The notes under the pieces: model-generated
Told to the model about the DNA's origin: nothing
The model's database searches: none
Seen by the model: the letters and a program-made list of their open reading frames with translations, nothing else
Part shown: in pieces, positions 48,117-49,827 of the stretch
Numbering within the stretch: the stretch's first letter is position 1
Layout: each line of letters opens with the position of its first letter
Origin: SAR86 cluster bacterium SAR86E
GTDB lineage: Bacteria > Pseudomonadota > Gammaproteobacteria > Magnimaribacterales > D2472
Length of the DNA: 64,000 nt
Assembly: GCA_000307935.1 (NCBI GenBank)
Contig: AMWX01000012.1
Span: forward strand, 186,001 to 250,000
Reading direction: 5' to 3'
Program-made: the position numbers and the translations under genes

Positions 48117-48135
48117 ATGTCATACTATGTCATAC
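48117..48135. repeat. Two 10-bp-phased direct repeats in the gltB/gltD divergent promoter
   Basis: ATGTCATAC occurs at 48117-48125 and again at 48127-48135, exactly ten bases apart, in the 22-base gap between the divergent gltB and gltD starts. The second copy includes the first possible gltD start codon. A one-helical-turn spacing is what a DNA-binding protein would need to contact the same face. A regulatory function is inference; no known operator was recognised. Confidence 0.5.
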
Positions 48136-49827
48136 ATACCACGCAGAAGTTTTAATTTAATGAGCGCAAAAAATAAACAATATAAAATTGATAAAGGTTT
48201 ATTGCTTTTCACCCAACCTCGATCTCCATACTTCTATGGAAAAATTAGACTTAATAGAAAATATGTAACTAAATCTTTTGCTCCAATAACTGATCTAGAT
48301 GAAGCAAAAGTTATGCTTTTTGAATGGCAAAAGGAGTTGCTTAGAGAAGATACAATTCCAACCGCTAATATCTCCTCTCCTGAAAAATTTAAATCTAGAT
48401 CAGAATATGTTGAACATGTTCCACTGGAGAATGATTTTCAATTCTTAGAAGTGGGGAGATATGACCCCAACAAAAAAAATATTGAGGAACGAAAAATTAA
48501 TTTTGTCGAGATATATGGGGATTACAATCAAGCTGAGGCTTCCAATCAGTCGCATAGGTGCTTGGATTGCGGAAATCCATATTGTGAATGGAAATGCCCG
48601 GTACATAATTATATTCCTGACTGGTTAAAATTAGTTAATGATGGAAACATATTGGAAGCTGCAGACTTATGCCATCAAACCAATTCACTGCCAGAAATGT
48701 GCGGAAGAGTTTGCCCGCAAGATCGACTCTGTGAAGGTGCATGTACTTTAAATGATGGCTTTGGCGCAGTCAGTATTGGGAATATCGAAAAATACATTAC
48801 TGATAAAGCTTTAGATATGGGATGGAAACCAGATCTATCTAATAGAAAATGGATCAACAAAAAAGTTGCGATTATTGGAGCTGGTCCTGCTGGCATTGGA
48901 TGTGCAGATGTGCTGATTAGATCAGGAATTAATTGTGATGTTTTTGATAAGCAGCCAGAAATAGGAGGATTGTTAACCTTTGGAATACCGGAATTTAAAT
49001 TAGAAAAAAGTGTTGTCAGGAGAAGAAGGAAAATTCTTGAGGAAATGGGAATAAAATTTCACCTTAATAAAGAAATTGGTAAGGATATTAATTTTCAAAA
49101 AATTTATGATAGCTATGATGCGGTATTTATGGGCATGGGTACATATACCTCATTGGAGGGAGGCTTCAAAGGAGAAGATTTGCCTCAGTCTCACAAAGCA
49201 ATAGACTATTTAATAGGAAACACCAACCATCTTTTGAAATTTAAACAGCGACCTGACAACTATATTAACTTTAAAGGCAAAGATGTGGTCATCCTTGGCG
49301 GTGGCGATACTTCAATGGACTGTAATCGAACAGCGATAAGGCAAGGAGCAAAATCTGTAACTTGCTTATACAGAAGAGATGAAAAAAATATGCCTGGGTC
49401 ACGAAGAGAAGTAATCAATGCAAAAGAGGAAGGAGTTCAATTTGAATATAATATTCAACCCATAGAAATTATAGGTACCGATAAGGTTGAAGGGGTGAAA
49501 ACCATACAAACAAGACTTGGTGAGCCAGACCAAAATGGTAGACGTATCCCAGTGCCGATAACTGGTAGTGAGAAAATTTATAAAGCGGATGAGGTTGTCA
49601 TTGCTTTCGGATTTAGAGCAAGTCCCTCACCCTGGTTTAAAGATTTCAACATAGAACTGGATAATGCGGGTCTTGTGATTGCGCCTGAAGATCAGGAGCT
49701 AAAATTTCAATCATCTAATCCTAAAATATTTTCAGGTGGCGATATGGTCCGAGGCTCAGATTTAGTAGTTACAGCTATTTGGGAAGGAAGAGAGGCTGCA
49801 AAAAGCATCAAACAGTTCGTCTCATAA
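48127..49827 (+). CDS. gltD: Glutamate synthase small subunit with an N-terminal integrase-arm-like extension
   Basis: GltD is the FAD/NADPH subunit that feeds electrons to GltB. From about residue 103 the 566-residue protein follows E. coli GltD: Fe-S cysteines in [20 protein letters not shown] and [19 protein letters not shown]-binding [12 protein letters not shown], and NADP-binding [12 protein letters not shown]. coli GltD is 472 residues; the extra 95 or so here lie at the N-terminus. Residues about 19-74 ([19 protein letters not shown], then [17 protein letters not shown]) resemble the arm-type DNA-binding or N-terminal SAM-like region of tyrosine integrases. No Met exists near the E. 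coli-like start, and the extension has normal codon use, so it seems to be real coding sequence. An ATG at 48160 (residue 12) is an alternative start. hemE follows directly. Confidence 0.92.

Follow-up and report, generated by a model that had tools for sequence, protein, structure and literature searches.

The gltB-gltD locus

The DNA analysed here (the window) is a stretch of 64,000 nucleotides from the genome of SAR86 cluster bacterium SAR86E. It carries both genes of glutamate synthase, with a tandem repeat between them and an N-terminal domain, here called the tag, ahead of the GltD body:

43647..48104, minus strand: gltB, large subunit of glutamate synthase; a gap of 55 bp separates it from the divergent gltD
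48118..48135, plus strand: tandem repeat TGTCATAC-TA-TGTCATAC, candidate tag-binding site between the divergent gltB and gltD
48127-49827, plus strand: open frame of gltD, 566 aa (ORF listing)
48160..49827, plus strand: gltD, likely true coding sequence of the glutamate synthase small subunit, 555 aa plus stop (TIGR01318 and homologue-based start)
48160..48351, plus strand: integrase-type N-terminal domain, the tag (profile match; four strands and a helix)
48352..48435, plus strand: variable linker behind the tag (low identity, low pLDDT)
48436..49824, plus strand: GltD body with 4Fe-4S, FAD and NAD(P) domains (profile matches)

The NCBIfam model TIGR01318 matches residues 104 to 564 of the 566-aa ORF at 729.2 bits, against a curated cut-off of 482.95. 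By this profile the enzyme body is complete, and the roughly 100 residues ahead of the match are extra. A first-pass annotation, made from the letters of the sequence, had remarked on about 100 additional residues before the GltD body and on the lack of a methionine near residue 100; both points are confirmed. The frame is open, the match begins at residue 104, and the protein strings quoted in the annotation do lie in the residues ahead of it. Upstream, the methionine at ORF residue 12 corresponds to base 48160. Stop codons lie within about four codons upstream of the equivalent position in 7 of 20 other homologues from the same genus, and because they close the frame there, comparison of homologues makes 48160 the most likely translation start, rather than 48127. 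Other SAR86 GltD homologues agree with a start at the equivalent place, and the ATG at 48127 falls within the conserved DNA repeat at 48118-48135. The tag then comprises ORF residues 12 to 75, and the linker runs on to about 48435. The extra domain that had been placed at 48127 to 48430 is thus real, but its boundaries shift to 48160-48351, with the start probably at 48160. Elsewhere in the window, a TonB-receptor-like ORF (50956-53247) lies near two further ORFs that by eye look like a tannase/feruloyl-esterase-type protein (53305-54759) and a carotenoid-cleavage-type oxygenase (55967-57454).

A conserved integrase-type domain on GltD

We compared the window's GltD with 77 other full-length SAR86 sequences, 3 of 80 loci being left out as cut. 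Mean identity to the window is 87% in the core of the tag (residues 16 to 45, counted from the Met at 48160) and 37% in the linker (residues 62 to 92); in the GltD body it is 88% over residues 121 to 230 and 78% over residues 231 to 555. Conservation of the core at this level means that the extra N-terminal frame is not a chance frame. In related genomes, the comparison by which the annotation had proposed to check its claim, the tag occurs in 94 genomes of the window's own family. The annotation had also allowed that the piece might be a leftover of an integrase. An inert remnant, fused to gltD by deletion, would fit both the likeness to integrase N-terminal domains and the presence of integrases in the order, but the difference between core and linker across the 77 loci and the 21 tag positions invariant among 40 sequences speak against it. 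We dropped this explanation, which the strong conservation of the tag contradicts, and now give it hardly any credence.

Single-sequence scans of Pfam, PHROGs and NCBIfam left residues 1 to 113 unmatched except by a PHROG of unknown function (E 0.2), and the relation to integrases appears with profiles only. An hhalign comparison of the tag profile with integrase N-terminal domains gave 94.6% (E 6.8e-8), and a profile built from ten tags (A1) matched a tyrosine integrase of the same order at E 3.7e-13; in Pfam, that integrase matches two Phage_int_SAM families, one above the cut-off and one just below it. Searched against 369 genomes of the class, in which most families are sampled by few genomes, the tag profile matched in nine genomes, two from the window's SAR86 family and seven with integrases. 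The matches outside the order comprise eight places in these seven genomes, every one an integrase by eye. Three of them were scanned in Pfam, where two match Phage_integrase well above the cut-off and one matches Phage_int_SAM above it. The catalytic integrase domain is absent from the 566-aa ORF by Pfam. On the strength of these profile comparisons, residues 12 to 75 of the ORF belong to the N-terminal (arm-type) domain kind of tyrosine integrases, and the suggestion of the first-pass annotation that GltD bears an integrase arm-like N-terminal domain is upheld.

An AlphaFold2 model of the tag, based on 39 sequences, has four strands and a helix (beta4-alpha; pLDDT 88.4, pTM 0.72). In the linker, pLDDT is below 50 from residue 65 on, and the full-length GltD model is poor beyond the tag (mean pLDDT 62.0). 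Foldseek found no significant match to the tag in the PDB (best E 0.35; an AP2 domain ranked sixth at E 0.81) or among viral models, and a sequence search of the PDB returned no relative of the tag (best E 0.32). Of the profile and structure searches by which the annotation had proposed to judge its claim, the former gave the integrase match and the latter, Foldseek against the PDB, did not give a significant one.

Hosts of the GltD-type domain

SAR86 families are numbered here f1 to f4, f1 being the family of the window genome. In a profile search of 203 genomes of the order, the GltD-type (type-1) tag was found on an ORF of GltD size or on a cut ORF in 94 genomes, all of them f1, with a full-length GltD host confirmed by reading in 77 loci; no GltD outside f1 matched the tag profile. 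Where an f1 genome has neither tag nor motif, the reason may in most cases be an assembly that lacks the gltD locus, the genomes often being incomplete. When whole proteins were compared with 16 genomes of f2 to f4, 13 matched from residue 98-117 onward and three from residue 48-73, these only through stops. In one f1 genome (G094; L174, G094:C1:57339-57523) the GltD tag is broken across two frames with the TGTCATAC repeat intact, possibly a sequencing error.

Related type-1 domains occur on other hosts. In f4, 14 of 21 genomes have one, and the host is a Rieske protein in which the tag precedes the TAT signal. Twelve of these tags read in one frame (one of them cut), that of G196 is split over two frames, and in G202 the Rieske host is not seen, as the contig ends there. 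Of the seven f4 genomes without the tag, two (G026 and G032) showed the Rieske gene. Two genomes, G006 and G014, have a type-1 domain on indolepyruvate:ferredoxin oxidoreductase (IOR). IOR was found in 10 of 58 genomes searched: two copies are tagged, seven match from residue 76-84 only and one is cut.

A second tag type, DUF6538

The Rieske protein of two f1 genomes of genus g10 (G080 and G084) carries an extension that differs from the GltD tag and matches DUF6538 (PF20172), at 27.9 bits against a gathering score of 27 in G080, the one scanned. The GltD tag is not DUF6538 by Pfam, and GltD tag and DUF6538-type tags do not align as profiles. Across the order, DUF6538 matches above 27 bits occur in 76 of 202 genomes. 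The hosts of this second type (type 2) among the 202 genomes are a flavoprotein of about 674 aa (60 genomes), a tail-anchored protein of 149 to 210 aa (40), IscS (12) and the g10 Rieske protein (9), and none of the 121 genomes counted has two of the four. This count was made by ORF length, with ORFs read for every class and not for every genome. It leaves out HflK matches, matches with internal stops, matches of the f4 type-1 Rieske tags and two ORFs that were either not read or not decided (G019, 506 aa, E 0.0975; G054, 439 aa, E 0.0239); four matches on integrase-length ORFs were counted apart. HflK-like ORFs with DUF6538 at E about 0.03 were judged spurious, two of five having been read.

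The window genome has a second tagged enzyme, outside the window: a flavoprotein (G000:C1:343475-343633; L223, L342) with DUF6538 at 40.0 bits and with 4Fe-4S and FAD/NAD domains. The gene that follows it encodes a 2-oxoacid:acceptor oxidoreductase alpha subunit (TIGR03710, above cut-off). The cysteine desulfurase of G037 is IscS by TIGR02006 (679.5 bits against a cut-off of 643.2). Nine of the 12 IscS tags, that of G037 included, fall under the DUF6538 cut-off, and one, when rescanned, had no DUF6538 match at E 0.001; we place them in type 2 because they are alike to the tags of f3 flavoproteins. A survey of IscS tagging over 66 genomes returned the same 12 as the DUF6538 search. The tail-anchored protein (L246-L250, L261) is built of DUF6538, then a linker, then a membrane-like segment at the C-terminus; one scores 26.8 bits for DUF6538, just under the cut-off of 27, and a domain scan found no Fe-S domain in this host.

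The tree of type-2 domains is short, with many open forks, several integrase rows on long branches and one row (L272) read in the wrong frame, and only its well supported forks are used here. One group (99/98) unites the N-terminal domain of a SAR86 integrase, L258, with the tail-anchored and g10 Rieske tags, the latter sitting inside the tail-anchored set, and the f3 flavoprotein tags (three of four) form one group with the IscS tags (87/85). From these groupings the DUF6538-type domain seems to have moved between hosts. In a phylum-wide search, 102 of 398 genomes matched DUF6538. Thirty of these loci were examined. A regular expression for an integrase motif matched in 18 of them (in at least one case, that of L267, on the wrong ORF) and left the other 12 undecided, several of which look by eye like integrases or fragments. 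Outside SAR86, the 30 loci showed no Fe-S fusion, a thin coverage.

Six of the seven host contexts (GltD, Rieske twice, IOR, flavoprotein, IscS and the tail-anchored protein) are Fe-S proteins or an Fe-S assembly enzyme, which could mean that the tag is a docking or delivery signal, marking client proteins and IscS for cluster donors. A client tag should, however, mark many proteins, and no genome of the 121 has two type-2 tags. The tail-anchored host lacks a recognised Fe-S domain, two non-aligning domain types are in use, and the repeats described in the next section would go unexplained. The count of type-2 tags per genome and the finding of the repeats led us to demote this reading, which we consider very unlikely.

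Repeats at the starts of tagged genes

In the window, 48118-48135 is the sole match to the gltD repeat with up to three mismatches, and it stands 13 bp from the start codon of gltB and 24 bp from that of gltD. The arrangement TGTCATAC-NN-TGTCATAC precedes the gltD tag in 80 of 80 f1 loci (66 exact, 14 with one mismatch), and all 94 tagged f1 genomes carry TGTCATAC twice at gltD. With at most one mismatch, TGTCATACNNTGTCATAC has 97 sites in 95 of 202 genomes, against one site for the reversed control; 93 of the 97 precede, by 3 to 35 bp, a GltD-tag match that shares their strand, and four lie elsewhere. The 94th tagged genome, G094, stands outside this count and likewise has the repeat. The reading frame across the repeat differs among species while the repeat itself is kept, so that the repeat is conserved as DNA. 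All 80 f1 loci have gltB divergent from gltD; in f3 and f4, the two genes share a strand and gltB comes first (8/8 loci).

Other tagged genes have repeats of their own. The f4 Rieske gene has TTGAACA/TGTTCAA, in the form TTGAACAC-N-TGTTCAA before the tag. The pattern TTGAACACN{3,18}TGTTCAA is found in 14/14 tagged f4 genomes, 0/7 untagged f4 genomes and 1/31 other genomes (reversed control, one site), and in genus g4 the presence of the TTGAACA/TGTTCAA motif follows that of the tag in each genome. ATACACA occurs three times at each of the two tagged IOR genes. Two or more GGTACA or AGTACA lie in the 200 bp ahead of the gene in all distinct leaders of IscS (12/12), the tail-anchored protein (6/6) and the g10 Rieske protein (2/2), and in 28 of 36 distinct leaders of the flavoprotein, the other eight having fewer than two. 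The flavoprotein gene of the window genome has only one such site, of GTACC type, in front. In the tail-anchored form AGTACA stands alongside GGTACA. The tail-anchored gene has ATGGGTACA/ATGAGTACA repeats ahead of and across its start codon.

None of the motifs occurs twice in 41 untagged leaders (23 Rieske, 9 IscS, 8 GltD and 1 IOR), of which the eight GltD leaders, lying behind gltB in one operon, are poor controls, and for IOR just one leader served. The same data were used both to find the motifs and to count them, and leaders in a group are related, so the counts are not independent. A blind count of repeated 6- to 8-mers, set against 60 dinucleotide shuffles per group, brought out the same words in the tagged groups. 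Margins were wide for GltD, f4 Rieske, flavoprotein and IscS (6-mers) and narrow for the tail-anchored protein, g10 Rieske and IOR, the last two being groups of two; controls were at shuffle level or at most one count above the largest shuffle.

These patterns of association strongly suggest that the repeats at tagged genes are putative DNA sites of the tags and that the tags have a DNA-binding regulatory role. For GltD, such a role had been proposed in the first-pass annotation, and repeats particular to each gene, present with the tag and absent from the untagged orthologues examined, now strongly suggest it. The motifs do stand at promoter- or operator-like positions and might be promoter parts, or sites of some other regulator unrelated to the tag. 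Yet GGTACA precedes four genes that are not homologous to one another, as well as an integrase gene, and what these five evidently have in common is a DUF6538-type domain, and the motif of genus g4 tracks the tag from genome to genome, which makes an independent regulator highly improbable.

Alternatively, the domain could bind the mRNA leader and repress its own translation, the repeats being RNA sites. The closeness of the repeats to the GltD tag (3 to 35 nt), their overlap or contact with start codons in the Rieske and tail-anchored genes and the single orientation of all GltD repeats would suit such a mechanism. On the other hand, the sites of IscS, Rieske and flavoprotein genes occur in both orientations, and some sites lie more than 100 bp upstream and are common to a divergent isc operon. 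Moreover, the relatives of the domain are integrase domains, and those of the arm type bind DNA (PMC2951348). We regard RNA binding as unlikely and favor DNA as the target of the tags.

The isc locus

IscR, which is Fe-S dependent, autoregulates the isc operon, whose genes it controls at their promoter. In SAR86, the genes adjoining iscS differ among families. Four f2 loci pair the tagged flavoprotein gene with a divergent iscR-iscS-iscU cluster. In four f3 loci the divergent cluster is iscS-iscU and lacks iscR, and in two more IscS itself is tagged, again with no adjoining iscR. An untagged iscS with an iscR-like ORF ahead is found in f1 (6 loci), and an untagged iscS without iscR in f4 (3 loci). 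Thus iscR does not stand beside iscS in any of the f3 loci read (L328-L330 and L339-L341; 6/6) or in those of f4 (L331, L332 and L344), iscR-like ORFs having been recognised by eye and looked for at isc loci only. In all eight flavoprotein loci of f2 and f3, the spacer has at least two GGTACA or AGTACA. Compared with IscR, it is a DUF6538-tagged flavoprotein or IscS, with GGTACA sites, that occupies the place of iscR in f3.

At some f3 isc loci, a ferredoxin frame of about 243 to 245 aa runs into an IscA-like domain by eye, resembling a ferredoxin-IscA fusion (L328 4728-5456, L329 279-1007, L330 3789-4523 and L341 693-1427).

Integrases and a possible origin of the tags

Two integrases of SAR86 have repeats before their own genes. 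The integrase L258 (G075) matches both Phage_integrase (39.3 bits) and DUF6538 (37.5 bits) above cut-off and has two GGTACA in the 45 bases ahead of its own ATG, a number that is unremarkable in the blind test. L156 (G031) has five TGTGTTA/TAACACA before its start (0/200 shuffles). This integrase adjoins a tRNA-Phe gene (1593-1668) in a small SAR86 genome and looks like part of an integrated element. Such repeats are no rule: one of 19 DUF6538 loci outside SAR86, with GGTACGA three times, was at or below 0.01 in the repeat test, and further integrases of the SAR86 order gave mixed results (0.015, 0.155 and, for L257, nothing). A short-pattern search of viral contigs found no relative of either tag type, and thus no phage donor.

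PMC2951348 describes integrases, IntS of KplE1 among them, that bind their own promoter where it overlaps the attachment region (attL) with its arm-type sites, and predicts that negative autoregulation of this kind is common. Given that two SAR86 integrases have repeats before their own genes, in one case GGTACA, the fusions may have taken over the 5' end of an integrase gene, promoter and arm sites included. If the 5' end was kept in this way, promoter, sites and DNA-binding domain would have been acquired at once. Going further, one might suppose a transferable cassette of integrase promoter, arm sites and N-terminal domain that Fe-S proteins of this streamlined marine lineage captured repeatedly, becoming Fe-S- or redox-sensing self-repressors, with the tagged flavoprotein or IscS of f3 replacing IscR at the isc operon; we put this forward tentatively, as a possibility that we rather doubt.

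A proposed mechanism for tagged enzymes

The first-pass annotation had centered on GltD. The extra domain that it saw is real, but the phenomenon reaches far beyond GltD, and the candidate site just ahead of the gene had escaped it. Computation shows the domain itself, how well it is conserved, that it is related to integrases, which hosts carry it and that it occurs together with repeats. The reading that we prefer, to which we assign a probability of roughly 0.78, is that a captured arm-type domain binds the TGTCATAC repeat, that GltD thereby autoregulates gltB and gltD, and that the same trick has been repeated in SAR86 on other hosts.

In this scheme, the tag of GltD would bind the tandem TGTCATAC repeat between gltB and gltD, and tagged GltD would control the divergent pair, most simply as a repressor. 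Repression is probable from the distances of 13 and 24 bp between the site and the two start codons, and gltB is probably controlled by the same candidate site as gltD. The related type-1 domains on Rieske and IOR would work likewise on the repeats of their own genes, and DUF6538 on the 4Fe-4S flavoprotein, IscS, Rieske and tail-anchored protein would be another instance, with the flavoprotein repeats only partly present. The prevalence of Fe-S proteins and IscS among the hosts suggests that the state of the cluster or of assembly is sensed, but the tail-anchored host shows no such part. We infer that the tag binds DNA and represses, and that the state of the enzyme part (assembly, Fe-S or redox) would be relayed to the DNA.

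We found no report of such fusions and no mention of DUF6538 in the open-access literature searched, most subscription journals lying outside this scope. By analogy, the closest counterparts of tagged GltD would be trigger enzymes of the PutA type. The DNA-binding domain of PutA is a ribbon-helix-helix. PutA, a proline dehydrogenase, is like GltD a flavoenzyme of metabolism to which an N-terminal domain has been added, and it binds only the putA-putP spacer (PMC8249747), so that in both cases the site, for GltD a candidate site, lies between the enzyme's own gene and a divergent partner. In contrast to PutA, the SAR86 domain is of the integrase N-terminal type, most of its hosts are Fe-S proteins, and there are six kinds of host within one order. 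Negatively autoregulated integrases such as IntS bind their own promoter, in a region with arm-type sites (PMC2951348), as tagged proteins would under our proposal; tagged SAR86 genes keep the N-terminal domain and the repeats alone, and a metabolic protein replaces the catalytic part. A third parallel is the ALOG domain of plants, a tyrosine recombinase DNA-binding domain recruited as a predicted transcription factor (PMC3537659), which differs in being eukaryotic and of retroposon recombinase origin and whose abstract mentions no fusion to a metabolic enzyme.

Implications for SAR86

SAR86 is a widespread marine group. Its genomes are small, about 0.7 to 1.8 Mb. If the proposed mechanism is true, central steps in nitrogen assimilation (glutamate synthase), in respiration (the bc1 Rieske protein), in 2-oxoacid oxidation and in Fe-S assembly in these organisms would be self-controlled through a domain from mobile elements. 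It would also offer a simple path from mobile element to regulator, in which promoter, sites and DNA-binding domain are captured in a single fusion, and would bring a good number of natural trigger enzymes to those known. Metabolic enzymes could then be tested directly for Fe-S sensing, and the gene-specific repeats provide ready-made candidate sites for each test.
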